Positions 7,487 through 51,800 of a stretch of 64,000 bases of DNA are shown here, piece by piece. How positions within the stretch are numbered: position 1 is the first letter of the stretch; every line of letters starts with the position of its first letter. The stretch spans positions 372,001-436,000 of the forward strand of contig JACREY010000008.1 in NCBI GenBank assembly GCA_016218085.1. Reading direction: 5' to 3'. The position numbers and the translations under genes are program-made. The notes under the pieces are model-generated. The model worked only from the letters and a program-made list of their open reading frames with translations. It did no database searches and was not told where the DNA came from. This stretch comes from Ignavibacteriota bacterium. Lineage in GTDB: Bacteria; Bacteroidota; Ignavibacteria; Tepidaquicellales; Tepidaquicellaceae.

Positions 7487-8824
7487 ATGGACAAAATTAA
7501 AGTTCTAATCATGGGTGCCGCAGGCAGAGATTTTCACAATTTTAACGTATTCTACAGAGATAACCCCCTCTATGAAGTTGTTGCGTTCACAGCCACACAG
7601 ATTCCTTACATCGACGACAGAAAATATCCCGCAGCTCTTTGCGGAAAATTATATCCCAAAGGTATTCCGATTTTCCCTGAAGAAGAATTGCTCGACCTAA
7701 TTAAAAAATACAAAGTAAAGGAAGTCGTATTCGCATATTCAGACGTTAATTCACAGTATGTGATGGCAAAAGCCGCAATTGTTAACGCCGCAAACGCTTC
7801 TTTCAGAATTATGGGCTACAAGGAAACTGCTGTAAAATCCACAAAACCCGTCATCGCGGTAGTTGCGGTTAGAACAGGCGCCGGCAAAAGCCAGACTTCC
7901 AGAAAAGTAGTAGAAATTTTACAGAGCCTTGGCAAAAAAGTCGTGTCAGTTAGGCATCCGATGCCCTACGGCGATTTAGTTAAACAAAAAGTTCAGAGAT
8001 TCGCTACAATAGCCGACCTTAAAAAGCACAAATGCACAATCGAGGAAATGGAAGAATACGAACCGCACGTAGCAAGCGGTAAAGTGATTTATGCAGGAGT
8101 TGATTATGAAGCTATCCTCCGCGAAGCAGAAAAAGAAGCAGACGTAATCGTATGGGACGGCGGAAATAACGATATGCCATTCTATCAGGCAGATTTAGTT
8201 ATCACAGTTGCAGACCCGCACAGACCCGGACACGAATTAAGTTACTACCCGGGTTTAACCAATATCAATATTGCCGACGTAATAGTATTAAATAAAATTG
8301 ATTCCGCATCACCGGAAAATATTCAGATAGTAAGAGACAGCATACAGAAAATAAATCCAAAAGCAGTCATAGTCGATGCCGCTTCACCGCTTTCACTCGA
8401 TAAAGAAGGCGATATCAATTTAATAAAAGGCAAGAGAGTCCTCGTAGTTGAAGACGGTCCGACACTCACACACGGCGGAATGAAATACGGCGCAGGTACA
8501 ATAGCCGCAAAGAAATTCGGCGCAAAAGAATTAGTTGACCCGCGTCCTTATGCAGTAAAAAGCATCCGCGAAACTTATGAGAAATATCCCGATATCGGAA
8601 TATTGCTCCCCGCAATGGGCTACGGCGATCGGCAGGTGAAAGACCTCGAAACAACGCTCAACAGGGTCCCCTGCGATACAGTAATTATCGGAACACCAAT
8701 TAACCTGAAGAGATTAATAAAAATCAAGAAACCTTCAGTGACAGTTAATTATTCATTGCAGGAAATCGGTAAACCGGATTTAACTGATATCATTACAGAT
8801 ATGTTCAAGAAAAAGAAAAAATAA
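7487..8824 (+). CDS. Cyclic 2,3-diphosphoglycerate synthase-like GTPase/ligase
   Basis: A 445-residue protein of the cyclic 2,3-diphosphoglycerate synthetase family, known from thermophilic archaea, where it makes a thermoprotectant solute, and also found in diverse bacteria. A Rossmann-like N-terminus (KVLIMGAAGRDFHNFN) is followed by a P-loop NTPase core with RTGAGKSQTSR at about residues 127-137, the IVWDGGNNDMPF motif and an NKID-type guanine-recognition motif (VLNKIDSA). The later VVEDGPTLTHGGM and AAKKFGA motifs are family hallmarks. It is a single gene ending in a lysine-rich tail and followed by a hairpin terminator at 8913-8945. The bacterial role is unproven. Confidence 0.8.
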   Translation: MDKIKVLIMGAAGRDFHNFNVFYRDNPLYEVVAFTATQIPYIDDRKYPAALCGKLYPKGIPIFPEEELLDLIKKYKVKEVVFAYSDVNSQYVMAKAAIVNAANASFRIMGYKETAVKSTKPVIAVVAVRTGAGKSQTSRKVVEILQSLGKKVVSVRHPMPYGDLVKQKVQRFATIADLKKHKCTIEEMEEYEPHVASGKVIYAGVDYEAILREAEKEADVIVWDGGNNDMPFYQADLVITVADPHRPGHELSYYPGLTNINIADVIVLNKIDSASPENIQIVRDSIQKINPKAVIVDAASPLSLDKEGDINLIKGKRVLVVEDGPTLTHGGMKYGAGTIAAKKFGAKELVDPRPYAVKSIRETYEKYPDIGILLPAMGYGDRQVKDLETTLNRVPCDTVIIGTPINLKRLIKIKKPSVTVNYSLQEIGKPDLTDIITDMFKKKKK

Positions 8825-8912
8825 ATATATGTTGTTGGTGACATTCCGGAGAGCGAAATTAAACACCAACAACGGCGGATTTTAATATCCCATATCCCTT
8901 TACTAATAAAAG

Positions 8913-8945
8913 CCGTTTTCAAAGAAATTTGAGAACGGTTTTTTT
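8913..8945 (+). terminator. Rho-independent terminator after the cDPG synthase-like gene
   Basis: CCGTTTTCAAA pairs with TTTGAGAACGG (one G-T wobble) around a short loop and is followed by seven T residues. It lies 88 bp past the stop codon at 8824. Confidence 0.85.
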
Positions 8946-9310
8946 GTTTCATAAGTCAGCGGAAACACCGGTCATTTTTAATAAAAATAAATAGCTGATA
9001 ATTCAACAAAAGCACTCAGAACAACGTTTCCGCGTTGTAATTTGCTGCAGTTTTGCTTTCCTCACTTATTATTTTCTGTTTATTTCAGTAGTTATACAGC
9101 GGTTAAAACTTAAAAAGTGTTGCAGAATCCGGAAACAAGAGCAATGCAAGATTTACTTTACATAATAATTGCACTTTCTTTCATTCTGAAGTGCATAAAT
9201 AGTGCAATTTTATTCGGATAAAATTGAGTTATTTAAAAGAACATATACCCATATTAATATATGGCTATTAAATTGAATTGTCAAGAGGATATTTTATATT
9301 TTGATTTGAT
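8946..9310. other. Non-coding stretch ahead of the repeat block
   Basis: No convincing gene. It contains small dyads such as CAACG...CGTTG near 9023 and GCACTT...AAGTGC near 9171, but nothing that matches a known RNA family by eye. A short ORF starting at 9261 runs into repeated DNA and is not credible. Confidence 0.5.
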
Positions 9311-9386
9311 TTTTTGCACTCCGGAGGAGTGGAATATTTATAGCACAGAATTCCTCTGCCTTGCGGCTCCGGAGGAGACGGATATA
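9311..9386 (+). repeat. Palindromic intergenic repeat, family 1, copy 1
   Basis: A unit of about 75 bp starting TTTTTGCACTCCGGAGGAGT, with the core palindrome GCACTCC...GGAGTG, then an AT-rich linker (AATATTTATAGCA) and a second palindrome CGGCTCCGGAGGAG. Two further copies lie at 9721-9796 and 10387-10461 in the same orientation. Differences between copies are point changes, so the family is moderately young. Confidence 0.85.
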
Positions 9387-9458
9387 AAATTATCATTATT
9401 TTTTTTTAAAATAAAAAATATAGTGAAATTATACTCACAAATGTATTGAAAAATAAAT

Positions 9459-9629
9459 TAGCCCCGGAGGGGCTGCCTGTTTGTAGATGATTTGATGTTT
9501 CTGAAAACAAAGCTCCGTAGGAGCGACCTATGATTATAATCTCATAAAACAATTGTTACAGGTCGCTCCTACGGAGCTTAGAAATTTTTTTCATTCATAT
9601 TCTACAAACAGTTCGCCCCTACGGGACTC
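9459..9629 (+). repeat. Nested inverted-repeat element, family 2, copy 1
   Basis: A unit of about 171 bp. It starts with the palindrome GCCCCGGAGGGGC, then has an outer inverted repeat CTGTTTGTAGA / TCTACAAACAG, and inside it a perfect 20-bp inverted repeat beginning AAGCTCCGTAGGAGCGACCT, whose loop is AT-rich. The other end carries CGCCCCTACGGGAC. Further copies are at 10129-10299 and 10468-10639. No ORF. The architecture resembles a MITE-like or large BIME-like element. Confidence 0.9.
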
Positions 9630-45992: not shown

Positions 45993-46505
45993 TTATTTTT
46001 GCTTCCTGTATGTTTCAACATACATTAAATAATTTCTCGAACTCCTGCTTATCTTATCAATTTCCTTTTCTGTAAGGTCCCTTACAATTCTTCCCGGCAC
46101 TCCGGCAACAAGAACTCCTTCGGGTACTACAAATTTCTCTTTTACAAGTGTTCCTGCCGCTATAAATGAATTCGAATTAATCACGCAGCTGTCAAGCAAT
46201 ACCGCTCCGATACCGATAAGCACCAGGTCTTTTATCGTGCATCCGTGAATCGATACGCTGTGCCCTATGGTTACATCGCTTCCTATTATAAGAGGATATT
46301 TCTTGTAAGTCACGTGCAGCATGCTTAAATCCTGAACGTTAGTTCGCTCTCCTATTTTTATGTAATTCACATCGCCCCTGATTACCGTATTGAACCAGAT
46401 GCTCGAGTTCTTCCCGATTTCAACATCGCCGATTATCTTGGCTCCTTCACAAATAAAAACACTCTCATCTACTTTCGGTTTAATTCCGTTATAAGGTATT
46501 ATCAT
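45993..46505 (-). CDS. Gamma-carbonic anhydrase-family protein
   Basis: A 170-residue left-handed beta-helix (hexapeptide repeat) protein of the gamma-carbonic anhydrase/PaaY/YrdA family. The zinc-type His residues appear in LHVTYKKYPLIIG, VTIGHSVSIHGCTI and the loop that follows; hexapeptide repeats run through residues 15-150. Many such proteins are enzymes or complex I-associated subunits; activity here is not shown. Its start codon overlaps the E2-like gene's stop as ATGA (46502-46505), so the two are translationally coupled. Whether that reflects shared function is unknown. Confidence 0.9.
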   Translation of the reverse strand: MIIPYNGIKPKVDESVFICEGAKIIGDVEIGKNSSIWFNTVIRGDVNYIKIGERTNVQDLSMLHVTYKKYPLIIGSDVTIGHSVSIHGCTIKDLVLIGIGAVLLDSCVINSNSFIAAGTLVKEKFVVPEGVLVAGVPGRIVRDLTEKEIDKISRSSRNYLMYVETYRKQK

Positions 46506-47047
46506 ATTAATTCTATTTTTATGTTATTCTCGTTATTAAATGAAATATCCGGTTCTCCTGACCTGATGTTCGTGCTGTCGACAGGAAGAAGATTTTTATT
46601 TTCTCTAGCCCACTTTGCAGCAATCCCGTTCAGCGGATTCTGAATCCCGTAATTTTTGTATTGAATCATCTCACCTATCTGATAAATTATATCAACCAGC
46701 GTTTCCCCTGATGCCCAGAAATCTCCGATGCAAATATCGTGCGGATGCGCCATCCTGAAATTCGGATGGAATATCCCGGTATGTATGTAACACTGAGGTT
46801 TTAACCTTGGATAATCTATGTGTAAATAAATCTCGATTCTGTGCTCGCTGATAAATTCAATAATCTTATTCTGAGGACCGGAAAGATTTGAAAGCTTAAT
46901 TCCCCTTATATTCCTGTAATTCACGAAATACCTTTCAGGCACGGAATCTTTCTTATTCTCAAATTCAACGGTTATAAAAGGATGCCTTATAAACTCGTTC
47001 ATTAAATTTTCATAATCCGCATTTAATCTTCTTTGTCTTGGTGTCAT
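46502..47047 (-). CDS. Ubiquitin-conjugating E2-fold protein
   Basis: A 181-residue protein that matches the eukaryotic UBC fold in order and motifs. An N-terminal helix (RQRRLNADYENLM) and beta strands precede YLHIDYPRLKPQCYIHTGIF, the equivalent of the YPxxPP region, then HPN at 94-96, a single candidate catalytic Cys106 in DICIGDFWASGETL (compare ICLDIL...W in E2 enzymes), and a C-terminal helix with QNPLNGIAAKWARENK (compare NPxxPLNxxAA). HPN to Cys spacing is 10 residues against 8 in UbcH5. Only one other Cys (86) exists. It lies 4 bp after a JAMM protease gene and overlaps the gamma-CA start. No E1 or ubiquitin-like gene is visible. Confidence 0.82.
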   Translation of the reverse strand: MTPRQRRLNADYENLMNEFIRHPFITVEFENKKDSVPERYFVNYRNIRGIKLSNLSGPQNKIIEFISEHRIEIYLHIDYPRLKPQCYIHTGIFHPNFRMAHPHDICIGDFWASGETLVDIIYQIGEMIQYKNYGIQNPLNGIAAKWARENKNLLPVDSTNIRSGEPDISFNNENNIKIELI

Positions 47048-47051
47048 TTTT

Positions 47052-48047
47052 TTACTTCTCCGTAGGAATTTCGATTTCCTGACCTACCGTAATATCATTT
47101 TCGTCTTTCAGGTTGTTGTGCCGTATTAACAAATTATACTTGCCTTCATCTTTCAGATATGCAGATGCTATCATACGCAGCGTTTCACCGTGCTTAATCT
47201 GGTGTTTAATGATATACTGACTTGATAAAACCGTGTCTTTTTCTGTGTTCAGTAATGATATTATATTCTCGAGCTTTGTATTAAGTTTTGTATTTTCTTC
47301 CTTTTGTGCCTGAATCTTTCCGCTTAAGTCGCTTATTTCCTTTTTCAGCTTTTTTTCTTCATTATATTTTACAGCAAGAAAAAAGGATAGAACAAGCACA
47401 AGCAGTGATAGTGCAAAAATCAAGAATAATGAAATACTATTTTTCTTTGTTTTTTTTTCCGCATTATACTCTTCCTTTTCCTTTTCCGGATTTAAACCGC
47501 TTGTCCGAAAATTTGAATACACGTAATAACAACCTGCCTTAACCAGACCTGCTTCTTTCATAAAAAAGAATCCGTCATCGTTATTAACCGGGTCAAAAAC
47601 ATATGCAACGTTATATTCCTGCGTGAAAAAGTTCTCGTGAATAAATTTATCATATGAAGATAAAAATACCGTGTGACCGGGATGCGAATGAAACCATCCG
47701 AGAATCTTTTTTCCCGGATACTCCTTGTCAATTTTATTGTTCATGTATTCCCACGAACTGTGTGTGAAAGTCAGCCTTGTAATGCTTGCCTCTGTATATA
47801 ATGCGATAACAAATTCATTCAGTATAATAAATATCCTGCCGTCAAAATCAGTATATACCTCCCCTAATAATACCCCTCCAAGTTCCTTTTCCTTATCACT
47901 CGATAAAAATGCCTTGATATCATTTAATACAATATCATTTATAAAAATCCTGAAATCCTCATCTCCGCTTCCGATTTTATTGAAATCAGCAGGATAACTG
48001 CCTTCGGATATTGGATTTCCAATATTCTTATCTTTTATTTCAGACAT
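47052..48047 (-). CDS. Membrane-anchored JAMM/MPN metalloprotease with LysM domain
   Basis: A 331-residue protein with a novel-looking architecture. Residues 30-180 form a JAB/MPN domain: Glu63 (GGVLLGEV), then His120, His122, Ser130 and Asp133 in HSHPGHTVFLSSYD, an exact JAMM motif (HxH, x7, S, x2, D). A single transmembrane helix follows at 204-226 (SISLFLIFALSLLVLVLSFF), then a coiled coil (about 228-268, EKKLKKEISDLSGKI) and a LysM peptidoglycan-binding domain (about 278-328, with KHGETLRMIA and NDITVGQEIEIP). The JAMM domain should lie in the cytoplasm and LysM in the periplasm. The start follows a 100-bp gap that begins the operon with the E2-like gene. JAMM enzymes remove ubiquitin-like modifiers in other systems; here the target is unknown. 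Confidence 0.85.
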   Translation of the reverse strand: MSEIKDKNIGNPISEGSYPADFNKIGSGDEDFRIFINDIVLNDIKAFLSSDKEKELGGVLLGEVYTDFDGRIFIILNEFVIALYTEASITRLTFTHSSWEYMNNKIDKEYPGKKILGWFHSHPGHTVFLSSYDKFIHENFFTQEYNVAYVFDPVNNDDGFFFMKEAGLVKAGCYYVYSNFRTSGLNPEKEKEEYNAEKKTKKNSISLFLIFALSLLVLVLSFFLAVKYNEEKKLKKEISDLSGKIQAQKEENTKLNTKLENIISLLNTEKDTVLSSQYIIKHQIKHGETLRMIASAYLKDEGKYNLLIRHNNLKDENDITVGQEIEIPTEK

Positions 48048-48147: not shown

Positions 48148-49212
48148 TTAATTATCAAGAATCATCAGCCTTCTTGGAACATATCCCGTACTGTATGTGG
48201 CTATCAGTGAATTATCGAATCCGAATATATGTATCCATCCGTTTGAAGTAAAAGTTCTTGCATTTGCGATGTAATGCTTTTTCCTCTTTGAATCAAATAT
48301 ATAACCGTAATAATAAGTGGATGCAGGGTTGCTGTTGTGAATCACTATTTCTGCGATTTTTGTGGAAAGATTCAGCCTGCAAATTTCATTTGCAAATGAT
48401 ATGAAATATATATTATCCGAATTTTTATCTATTGAGATATCCCTCGCGAATCCTCCCGTCGCTCCGAGCGAAACAGAATCGAGAATCGCAAAAGTGACAG
48501 GATCAATCGTAAAAACATACCCTGTGATGCTGTAACATCCAACCAGGATTTTATTACTCCTGCTTAAAGCTATAGATGCCGGTTCCCTTTTTAATGTTAT
48601 CCTGCTGATAACCGTATCCGCATTTGCATCTATAACATATACAGTCGAATCATATGGACCTCCCCAGTTGCTCGTATTGCAAACAAATACTTTTCCGTTG
48701 AAAGACAATATTTCCTGCGGATAAATTCCGGTGTTAATCGTTTTCAAAGTTGCCAGACTGCTAAAATCAAGCACGGATACATTGTTTGCGGGTCCGTTTG
48801 TAACATAAATCTTGCTGTTTGATGTGCACAGGGAATAAGGATTTGTTCCGACAATCTGTGATTGCTTTACGGTTCCGCCCGTATCAATCCTGTAAATCTT
48901 TCCTGCGCTGTTAAAATTTCCCTGCTCCGTTATTAAAATATCCGAACCGTCGTAAATCATCCCGTCAGACGCATTACCTAAATTACCCGGCCTGAATATA
49001 TTCTGATAAAATGCAGTGTCAAAATCGTAAAATGACAGCATAGATGAACCGGTAACTGACATCGAACCTTCCGATAGAATGTATAATCCTTTTTTTGAAT
49101 TAATCGCAATGGGATTGTTATTTGAGCCGACTATCTCCTCCCTGCTGCATCCGCCTATTGTTAATAAAAAAATATAAGAAGTAAAAATTAAGATTACTTT
49201 GGTCATTTTCAT
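48148..49212 (-). CDS. Beta-propeller lipoprotein, BtuG-like
   Basis: A 354-residue lipoprotein: signal and lipobox LLTIGGCS (Cys near residue 22), then a series of YncE/NHL-type propeller blades (VTNGPANNVSVLDF, VYVIDANADTVISRI, VFTIDPVTFAIL and others) that would form a seven-bladed beta-propeller on the cell surface. It is the third gene after a cobalamin riboswitch and follows a CobO/BtuR homologue by 13 bp. In Bacteroides a surface propeller lipoprotein, BtuG, binds B12 with very high affinity and hands it to BtuB, so the same role is a good inference from fold and context. Direct homology cannot be tested here. Confidence 0.75.
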   Translation of the reverse strand: MKMTKVILIFTSYIFLLTIGGCSREEIVGSNNNPIAINSKKGLYILSEGSMSVTGSSMLSFYDFDTAFYQNIFRPGNLGNASDGMIYDGSDILITEQGNFNSAGKIYRIDTGGTVKQSQIVGTNPYSLCTSNSKIYVTNGPANNVSVLDFSSLATLKTINTGIYPQEILSFNGKVFVCNTSNWGGPYDSTVYVIDANADTVISRITLKREPASIALSRSNKILVGCYSITGYVFTIDPVTFAILDSVSLGATGGFARDISIDKNSDNIYFISFANEICRLNLSTKIAEIVIHNSNPASTYYYGYIFDSKRKKHYIANARTFTSNGWIHIFGFDNSLIATYSTGYVPRRLMILDN

Positions 49213-49225
49213 TGATTATAAAATT

Positions 49226-49879
49226 TTAAAATTCAATTCCTTCCCTTGCGGGAATTCCTTTGTCAAAATAGTGTTTTACTTTTTTCATCTCCGTAATTAA
49301 ATCCGCACAGTCTTCAATCTCCGGCCATATTTTATGACCTGTCATTACAAGCTCGAACCTTTTATTCTTATTGAATAATCCGGCAAGCTCTTCGATGTCT
49401 TTCTTATCAAGCAAATTATAAGCGGCGGCGGCAATCACCTCATCGAGAATCAATAAATCCTGCTTGCCTCCGTTTATATATTCTTTCGAAATCTTCAGTC
49501 CTTTTTTTGCTTCGGAAAAATCACTTTTTGTGTTCTTGAACCTGAATGTTCCGTCTGAATTCATCCTCTCGCAACCCGTTGCGATCATCTCAATTGGATA
49601 ACCGTCTGCTTTCAGCTTCCTTAAAATATTTCTCTCGGAATAATGCTCGTTTCTGCCATCGTATCCCTTGTCAAACTGAATCATAACAACTTTTTTTCCG
49701 GCTCCCAGTGCACGGATTGCCAGACCGATTGTACTGGTTGTCTTCCCCTTGCCGTAACCATAATAAATATGCAGGCAGTGCTTGTCTTCTTCGCTAAGAT
49801 TTTTATAACCTTCTATTGTCTTGAGCATTTTCTCGCGAAGCTTCTTTCCTCCATCGGCTTTCTTTAATGTTGTTTTCAT
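49226..49879 (-). CDS. cobO: Cob(I)yrinic acid a,c-diamide adenosyltransferase (CobO/BtuR)
   Basis: A 217-residue P-loop corrinoid adenosyltransferase of the CobA/CobO/BtuR family. The nucleotide-binding loop is YYGYGKGKTTSTIGLAIRAL at about residues 45-64, with KVVMIQFDKG and LLILDEVIAA further on. The enzyme transfers adenosyl from ATP to Co(I) of B12 or its precursor in the cytoplasm. It stands between the BtuB-like receptor (1 bp) and the propeller lipoprotein, in the riboswitch operon, so it probably serves B12 salvage. Confidence 0.9.
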   Translation of the reverse strand: MKTTLKKADGGKKLREKMLKTIEGYKNLSEEDKHCLHIYYGYGKGKTTSTIGLAIRALGAGKKVVMIQFDKGYDGRNEHYSERNILRKLKADGYPIEMIATGCERMNSDGTFRFKNTKSDFSEAKKGLKISKEYINGGKQDLLILDEVIAAAAYNLLDKKDIEELAGLFNKNKRFELVMTGHKIWPEIEDCADLITEMKKVKHYFDKGIPAREGIEF

Positions 49880-49880
49880 T

Positions 49881-51800
49881 TTAGTATATTAAACTTAAAT
49901 TAATTTTGTAATTTCTGAGCGGCATAGGGTATCCTTGAATTATAATGTAATCTTCATTCAAAACGTTATTTATCTCGAATTTCGTATTAATCGTAATTTT
50001 GTTAACTTTTATTGTGTACCCTATATTTCCATCAAGCAAATCAATCACGGGAAGCCTCTCCTTATTTTCAAAATCCGAATACCTCTTGCCTGTAAAGCTG
50101 TAAAAGAAATTTAGAGATACATTCCTGTAATTAACTCCGAGATTCATTTTCGATAATTCAACCGGAATGAAAAATATCTGCTTTCCGTATGAAGCATCAC
50201 CCGGATAATCGTATGATTTCTTTACTGAGCTGTTGTATGTATAACCATATCCGATTTCCATCTCAAAATCATCATTAAACCTTTTCCTTGAGTTTATCTC
50301 AATTGAAAAAATGTTCGATTCGGATATATCAATGTTGAATGGCTTCCATAATCCGAATTCCGCCGGCTTCCAGACAATCTTGTCTTCCAGTCTTATCCTT
50401 GTGTAATTCAACTCAATTATATTTTGCGTAATTAAGTCAAACCTGTAAATCAATCCCGCATCGAAGTTGACCGAACTCTCAGGCCTGAGATTCCTGTTTC
50501 CTATATTTTTCCAGTATAGTTCATTGAATGTCGGAGCGCTGAAATTATTCCCGATGCTTGTCCTTAAATTCAAATTTATTCCTGTAACAGGCTTGAAATT
50601 CAGCCCGAACTTTCCTGTATAAACATCCCTACCTATGTCAGAAATATAATCATACCGTAAAGACGGAAATAACTTGAGGAAATCAGAAACATTAATTTCT
50701 CCTGCTGTGAATATGCTGCATTGCTTCCTGCTGGCAGTTTCATCAAAACTGCTTCCGCTTATATCCGCATATGTGACTTCAAAACCGGATGTATTTTTGA
50801 AATATTTATTTTTAAATGATAAAGTAGTAAGGCCCGTAAGAACCCTGTTTCTGTAATGGCTTTCATCCAGCCCGGGTTCAGTGTATTTCATCAGGTTATT
50901 CTGATAATTCAAATCGGATGAAATAGAAACTGCTTCATTTAAAAAATGGCTGTAACTCAGGTTGTTGTTCCAGTTGATATCCCTTTGCTGTGCAGAGGAA
51001 GACGGTGTCCCTGCTTCTATTCCCGGCAAATCCCTTTTCTGTGAAAAAAATCCCGAATTAAATCTTATTTCATTCTTTTTTCCTGTCCTGTAATTCAAAT
51101 CGAGGTATAAATTGTCCGCAACGAATCCGTTGTTGTTTCTTTCCCTTTCATTCCTGCTTGTTCCGTCGTAGTAAATGTATTTGAAATTCCCCTTCGACTT
51201 TTCCCTCGAATAAAATAAATCATACTTTAAGTTCCCTGTCGAATTTCCGTAATTCACCGAATATTTATTGTAACCGTAAGAGCCGAGTGTACCGCTTAAT
51301 TCCGCTTTTGGATTATCGTTCCTTAAAGACTTTGTTATAACATTTATCACTCCTCCGATAGCGTTGCTTCCGTATAACGAACTTGCTCCGTTGCTCATTA
51401 TTTCAATTTTTTCTATTTTGTCTTTCGGTATCAAAGACAAATCCGCTTGAGAATTCTGGAATGAATTAATTTTTTTCCCGTCTATCAGCACGAGCGTATG
51501 CTCGGCGCCCAGCCCGTTTAATGATATCGTGCTTAGCGAGCCGTCTCCTCCGTATGTTTTCATAAATACATTTCCGGTTGTTTTTAAAATATCCGACAGC
51601 CTGCTGCCGTTTACAGTCGAAATCTTCCTTTCGTCCAGTACCTTTACAGATGAGGGAGACCAGTATATTCCCGTTTCGATGCGGCCGCCTTTTACAACTA
51701 TTTCTTCAATACTGTAAACGGTATCCCTCGAGGATGCAACCTGAGAAGATGCATTACTGCAAATTGCAAACAATAATATTTGTATTAATAATGTTTTCAA
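49881..51800 (-). CDS. BtuB-like TonB-dependent cobalamin receptor
   Basis: A 639-residue outer-membrane receptor. Start: a TTG at 51798-51800 preceding KTLLIQILLFAICSNASSQ; no in-frame ATG is available upstream (a stop lies at 51831-51833). Signal peptide 1-20, plug (about 30-160, with GSRLSDILKTTGNVFMKTYG and ASSLYGSNAIGGVINVITKS), then a barrel to the C-terminal LSLIY. It is the first gene behind a cobalamin riboswitch, which identifies its ligand as B12 more surely than its own sequence. Regulation: low B12 allows expression, high B12 should fold the riboswitch and stop the transcript. Confidence 0.88.
   Translation of the reverse strand: MKTLLIQILLFAICSNASSQVASSRDTVYSIEEIVVKGGRIETGIYWSPSSVKVLDERKISTVNGSRLSDILKTTGNVFMKTYGGDGSLSTISLNGLGAEHTLVLIDGKKINSFQNSQADLSLIPKDKIEKIEIMSNGASSLYGSNAIGGVINVITKSLRNDNPKAELSGTLGSYGYNKYSVNYGNSTGNLKYDLFYSREKSKGNFKYIYYDGTSRNERERNNNGFVADNLYLDLNYRTGKKNEIRFNSGFFSQKRDLPGIEAGTPSSSAQQRDINWNNNLSYSHFLNEAVSISSDLNYQNNLMKYTEPGLDESHYRNRVLTGLTTLSFKNKYFKNTSGFEVTYADISGSSFDETASRKQCSIFTAGEINVSDFLKLFPSLRYDYISDIGRDVYTGKFGLNFKPVTGINLNLRTSIGNNFSAPTFNELYWKNIGNRNLRPESSVNFDAGLIYRFDLITQNIIELNYTRIRLEDKIVWKPAEFGLWKPFNIDISESNIFSIEINSRKRFNDDFEMEIGYGYTYNSSVKKSYDYPGDASYGKQIFFIPVELSKMNLGVNYRNVSLNFFYSFTGKRYSDFENKERLPVIDLLDGNIGYTIKVNKITINTKFEINNVLNEDYIIIQGYPMPLRNYKINLSLIY

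Follow-up and report, generated by a model that had tools for sequence, protein, structure and literature searches.

A JAMM protease joined to a LysM domain across a transmembrane helix, encoded beside an E2 gene in an Ignavibacteriota genome and probably part of a bacterial ubiquitin-like system

The window, that is, the whole stretch of 64,000 nucleotides that was analysed, carries on its minus strand a gene whose product combines a JAMM protease domain, a transmembrane (TM) helix, a coiled coil and a LysM domain. An E2 gene and a gamma-carbonic-anhydrase-like gene lie next to it. The features are the following.

47052..48047, minus strand: JAMM-TM-coiled coil-LysM protein, 331 amino acids (ORF with ATG start; Pfam JAB and LysM; AlphaFold2)
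47514..47960, minus strand: JAMM/MPN+ catalytic domain, residues 30-178 (Pfam, AlphaFold2, Foldseek, profile match to Rpn11)
47649..47690, minus strand: JAMM motif H120-S-H122-P...S130-x-x-D133, with E55 at 47883-47885 (conservation in orthologues)
47370..47441, minus strand: single TM helix, residues 203-226 (hydropathy peak; same place in 40 of 40 proteins)
47229..47369, minus strand: coiled-coil stalk, residues 227-273 (continuous AlphaFold2 helix 204-273; weak DivIC match to the TM and coil region)
47064..47204, minus strand: LysM domain, residues 282-328 (PF01476; profile matches solved LysM proteins)
46502..47047, minus strand: E2 (ubiquitin-conjugating fold) with HPN 94-96 and catalytic Cys106 (Pfam, profile, Foldseek, conservation)
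45993..46505, minus strand: gamma-carbonic-anhydrase-like hexapeptide protein (conserved neighbour)

The JAMM-LysM protein matches JAB (PF01398, E=3.5e-8, residues 40-140) above the Pfam cut-off, and likewise LysM (PF01476, E=5.2e-6, residues 282-328; 26.8 bits against a cut-off of 20.9). The residues of the JAMM motif (E, HxHP-x6-SxxD), namely E55, H120, H122, the proline, S130 and D133, do not vary among 18 orthologues from the host family. A set of 40 JAMM-LysM proteins drawn from several phyla shows HxHP, S and D without exception and E55 almost without exception. These 40 were chosen with our own LysM profile, so the finding that all of them match both JAB and LysM in Pfam is a confirmation and not an estimate of prevalence. 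The sole strong hydropathy peak (19-residue maximum 2.99 at position 207, residues 207-225) was equalled in 1 of 20,000 shuffles of the protein, and each of the 40 has a TM window behind its JAMM domain. The AlphaFold2 model, built from the alignment of the 40 sequences, has a mean pLDDT of 88.6. It shows the JAMM domain (about 20-178) and, after an uncertain linker, a single continuous helix (204-273) spanning the TM segment and the coiled coil, then LysM (279-328). The nearest known relative of the JAMM domain is Rpn11, including that of Caldiarchaeum. The predicted structure aligns with the Caldiarchaeum Rpn11-ubiquitin complex 6fnn (TMt 0.80, rmsd 2.3), and the sequence profile matches yeast Rpn11 at about 1e-15 and Caldiarchaeum Rpn11 at about 1e-14.

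An earlier note, made from the letters alone, had placed an MPN domain at residues 30-180 and a TM helix at 204-226, followed by a coiled coil and LysM. Pfam, hydropathy and AlphaFold2 reproduce these boundaries essentially exactly, and both the TM helix and, by profile search, the LysM domain are present. An isolated oddity or a chimeric ORF was ruled out, as the JAMM gene is kept in 21 of 29 genomes of the host family and in several phyla. No NCBIfam name was returned above cut-off for the JAMM, E2, ubiquitin-like (Ubl) or RING protein, and a promoter and terminator scan found sites no more numerous than in shuffles.

The E2 gene starts after a 4-nt gap behind the JAMM stop codon and overlaps the gamma-carbonic-anhydrase-like gene by 4 nt. 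Its product is a true E2. The match to PF00179 (UQ_con) falls just below the gathering cut-off (E=2.7e-5; 24.2 bits, cut-off 27), a profile of 30 sequences matches yeast Ubc13 (E=5.5e-9), the predicted structure (pLDDT 86) matches many E2s in Foldseek (best 9.6e-8), and HPN 94-96 and Cys106 are invariant in the 30 sequences. The gamma-carbonic-anhydrase-like protein probably stands outside the conjugation chemistry. Upstream of the JAMM gene, on the same strand (48148-51800), is a set resembling B12-uptake genes: a TonB-B12 receptor family member, BtuR/CobO and a DUF5074/YncE-like beta-propeller lipoprotein. The order TonB-BtuR-DUF5074-JAMM-E2-carbonic anhydrase recurs in the six host-family loci with enough flank, one of which has an extra DUF5074 gene.

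A second locus of the same genome has consecutive genes for three further components, a Ubl, the E1 and a RING protein with a membrane helix, in an order (Ubl-E1-RING) conserved in the host family; a linkage of the JAMM to the E2 alone is thereby superseded. The Ubl has 91 residues and a beta-grasp type of fold by its family, belongs to the YukD family (5.7e-16) and is encoded adjacent to the E1, which is the single full ThiF-family protein of the genome. The E1 has a glycine-rich ATP motif, a CxxC...CxxH zinc site (C167/C170/C254/H257) that is at least 95% conserved, and a presumed catalytic cysteine, Cys186, that is invariant in 66 of 66 relatives; it also resembles ThiF/MoeB. The RING protein (281 residues; 8646-9491 of locus L056, on contig C8 of this genome) contains Prok-RING_1 (PF14446, 2e-12), a zinc ribbon, a TM helix and a C-terminal Cds6_C/NTF2-like domain, possibly an extracytoplasmic sensor on an E3. 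By sequence, the E2, E1, Ubl and RING components of a eukaryote-like E1-E2-RING Ubl system are all present. No other JAMM proteins were found in the genome except two of RadC type, to which the remaining JAB-like matches were assigned by their HNHPSGD motif. A proteasome-family match elsewhere in the genome (190 residues) is probably HslV.

The components occur together in the host family. JAMM and Ubl are present in the same 21 of 29 genomes; 20 of these 21 have the E2 (the JAMM of the 21st lies at a contig end), and a close E1 is found in 20, the remaining one having an E1 fragment. The remaining eight genomes are without JAMM, E2, Ubl and E1 alike (Fisher p=2.3e-7 for the 21-0/0-8 distribution, with phylogeny not corrected for). 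The adjacent E2 and the co-occurring Ubl and E1 support the link to modifier conjugation, in line with the earlier note. Prok-RING_1 domains are found in 28 of the 29 genomes, non-carriers included, which leaves the E1-adjacent copy as the informative one; RING presence was rejected as a marker of the system. A frameshift interrupts the JAMM gene in G008, and contig ends break it up in G027. LysM is kept in 18 of the 20 host-family orthologues with a readable C-terminus. In the other two, G014 and G020, the protein ends behind the coiled coil, and the E2 gene follows too closely for the domain to fit in between. The loss of the C-terminal part that the earlier note had named as evidence against its reading thus occurs in these two orthologues and not in the other 18.

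At least 79 loci were returned when 84,980 species genomes were scanned. Among the matches listed, the order JAMM-TM-LysM is found in Ignavibacteriota, Bacillota (Lachnospiraceae, Oscillospiraceae, Clostridium weizhouense, Tindallia and Syntrophomonas), Armatimonadota/Zipacnadia and WS1, and the JAMMs of Planctomycetota mostly keep the TM helix and have other C-terminal parts. The 15 listed JAMM-LysM loci outside Ignavibacteriota with long flanks were selected by JAMM only; Ubl is present in 15, E1 and E2 in 14 each and RING in 13. The recurrence of the architecture and its pairing with an E2, which the earlier note had proposed to look for, are therefore both seen. In operons of this type many JAMMs have no LysM. 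Explaining the LysM label on the JAMM tree takes about 10 changes, of which 7 are forced, whereas shuffled labels take 31; some of the apparent losses may be contig ends or short ORFs. These counts rule against a single origin of LysM on JAMM and suggest that gain and loss are frequent, though clustered far beyond shuffles. The TM helix is steadier than LysM in these proteins.

In several operons of Clostridia (L118-L135) membrane JAMMs come in pairs of which only one member has LysM, and the two kinds fall in separate clades. At a Clostridium locus (L124:4613-6352) the E2 is fused to a TM helix and a C-terminal FHA domain, and further E2s of Bacillota are of comparable length and also have a TM helix. 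An FHA protein also lies within the operon of an Armatimonadota locus (L149:12416-13498). These FHA domains hint at phosphothreonine control. Trypsin-like peptidases (PF13365) with a signal-like N-terminus are encoded inside Ubl operons at L124:6379-7194, L118:5126-6028 and L149:5386-6321.

Ubls of the host family are 79-93% identical to the copy in this genome and have an invariant PEITAG at the C-terminal end; the tail behind it is variable, 0 to about 20 residues long, and could be removed by a JAMM. In this genome the Ubl precursor ends in ITAG-RF. PEITAG endings also occur at loci of Bacillota and Armatimonadota and at most of those of Planctomycetota; PEIVAG, PEITTG and AEITAG are among the rare variants. 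In profile alignment Gly89 of the Ubl corresponds to the terminal Gly of mature SUMO-1. Eight of 18 host-family Ubls end at the PEITAG Gly and need no trimming, and their genomes retain a JAMM with its active site.

The charges that flank the TM helix suggest that the JAMM domain is cytoplasmic and LysM outside. Net charge before and after the helix averages +2.05 and -0.20 in the 40 proteins (Wilcoxon p=7.6e-6, relatedness not corrected). The bias favours N-in over N-out by 28 to 7 in the 40 and by 12 to 0 in 14 Ignavibacteria. The flanks of the protein in the window are themselves neutral (net +1/+1), and the bias is significant only over the family. None of eight JAMM-LysM proteins tested has a signal-peptide-like N-terminus, nor is there an N-terminal hydrophobic signal. 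The partners are likewise soluble or N-in: nearly all E1 and Ubl proteins are without a TM helix, and the TM helix of the RING protein in the host family has a flanking charge of +3 to +9 on the inner side against about 0 on the outer side. The N-in topology of the earlier note is thus the predicted one. The charge data for JAMM and RING suggest a shared plan of cytoplasmic ubiquitin-enzyme domain, TM helix and extracytoplasmic domain. LysM may also occur in cytoplasmic proteins, as a weak match to the PRK11198 LysM family indicates.

On these features, the protein probably serves a complete bacterial Ubl system as its protease for processing and deconjugation, anchored in the membrane and with LysM directed to peptidoglycan. 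The system would consist of the YukD-family Ubl, the E1 with Cys186, the adjacent E2, the membrane Prok-RING_1 E3-like protein and the JAMM, and would tag proteins at the membrane. Working on the cytoplasmic side of the inner membrane, the JAMM domain would trim the Ubl tail after the Gly of PEITAG where a tail exists, and would cut the Ubl off conjugated proteins, preferentially membrane-located ones. The TM helix and the coiled-coil stalk would bring LysM through the periplasm to peptidoglycan, which it is expected to bind; the stalk, 47 residues and roughly 7 nm if helical, could reach that layer. LysM may hold the protease at the cell wall or tune it to the state of the wall. Its absence from two of 20 host-family orthologues and from many JAMMs in operons of this kind suggests that the core reaction can proceed without contact to the wall.

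It could be argued that the JAMM only matures the Ubl precursor, that the Ubl is non-covalent or sulfur-carrier-like, and that the membrane helix and LysM are incidental anchors. Many Ubls do have a tail after the PEITAG Gly, the E1 resembles ThiF/MoeB as well, and YukD proteins of type VII secretion systems (T7SS) are reported as not conjugated (PMC1779556, PMC11217815). However, the JAMM is kept although 8 of 18 host-family Ubls are tail-less, which a pure maturation role fails to explain, and an E2 with HPN and the invariant Cys106 is present, whereas sulfur carriers need no E2. A search for WXG100 (PF06013) gave no match in the genome, which rules against a T7SS role via YukD. We regard maturation alone as unlikely, and deconjugation as the likelier core role of the JAMM on the pattern of Ubl endings.

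An anti-phage system of the Bil or CBASS Cap2-Cap3 kind would use the same toolkit (Ubl, E1, E2 and JAMM), and weak PADLOC JAB matches were obtained. They are confined to the generic JAB domain, however, and NCBIfam cap2_3 is far below cut-off. The genes occupy one conserved place beside B12-uptake genes in the host family, no phage-defence neighbours were seen around the locus, and the closest JAMM is Rpn11 and not a defence JAMM. A defence island is therefore unsupported and a role in phage defence improbable. Least probable is the other topology, which the earlier note had offered as its alternative, in which an exported JAMM domain would act on cell-wall or surface proteins. LysM is common in exported enzymes and the TM flanks of this protein are neutral, but the lack of an N-terminal signal, the charge bias of the family, the nearly TM-free E1 and Ubl proteins and the strongly N-in RING partners all argue against it.

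BilC of BilABCD and Cap3 of CBASS are bacterial JAMM proteases that act on Ubls; they are soluble and found in defence islands, whereas the JAMM described here is membrane-anchored with LysM and lies in stable chromosomal synteny. AMSH (STAMBP), Rpn11 and CSN5 share the JAMM fold and motif with this protein, and also the deconjugating role proposed for it; these enzymes are localised by protein partners, in contrast to the TM helix and cell-wall domain of this protein. Conjugation of YukD-like Ubls is reportedly put forward as a possibility in the 2011 abstract of Burroughs, Iyer and Aravind.

Two citing articles (PMC4197634, PMC11354881) attribute bacterial Ubl/E1/E2/RING/JAB operons to Burroughs, Iyer and Aravind (2011, Mol BioSyst 7:2261). 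The YukD-like Ubl/E1/E2/Prok-RING/JAB operons agree with the present system in component list and family names, including the Prok-RING_1 (PF14446) found here, but the phyla cited are Actinobacteria, Planctomycetes and Acidobacteria. The system of Caldiarchaeum subterraneum (PMC6043591, PMC5654768), whose Rpn11 is among the nearest structural matches, has, like the one proposed here, an Rpn11-like JAMM, a tailed Ubl precursor cut after a C-terminal Gly, and E1, E2 and RING E3. Its Rpn11 cleaves its own ubiquitin precursor after Gly-Gly and removes ubiquitin from conjugates (PMC6043591). No TM helix, coiled coil or LysM is described for that enzyme, however; its ubiquitin ends in Gly-Gly and is nearest human ubiquitin, whereas the Ubl here is of the YukD family and ends in ITAG, and the genes here are split over two loci. 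LysM is absent from Iyer 2006 (PMC1779556). The legend of Fig. 1 in Fuchs et al. 2018 names "bacterial lysM-associated JAMM sequences", excluded from the map and unstudied (PMC6043591). They have the same domain pairing and are very likely the same proteins, but they are only named, with no operon, topology or function given. The earlier note had called the arrangement unfamiliar. Our literature search found no functional study or analysis of a JAMM-TM-LysM fusion, and no functional account of a deubiquitinase-like enzyme bound to membrane and cell wall, but the fusion itself had already been mentioned in that legend.

More tentatively, and at somewhat less than even odds in our judgement, this may be a widespread bacterial Ubl system at the envelope, in which the deconjugase takes the PEITAG modifier off membrane or cell-wall-synthesis proteins under the control of its own contact with peptidoglycan, a transmembrane and wall-sensing form of regulation. 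The E3, the deconjugase and, in Bacillota, also the E2 (the TM and FHA fusion) would then be membrane proteins. If so, bacterial ubiquitin-like modification has a dedicated envelope branch across several phyla, and E3 and deconjugase are both built as cytoplasmic enzyme domain, TM helix and extracytoplasmic domain. Lysines modified in this way should keep eight residues, LxPEITAG, after trypsin digestion: LYPEITAG from the Ubl of this genome and LQPEITAG from most others. That remnant could be searched for in the proteomes of cultured carriers such as Clostridium weizhouense and Massiliimalia massiliensis.

More divergent relatives were also seen. At L159, labelled uncultured archaeon, the stretch covered contains only a JAMM. 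The Ubls of Chloroflexota (L151, L178) are divergent and end in DVTAG or EVTAG, and L151 encodes an E2-like protein with an N-terminal Ubl domain.
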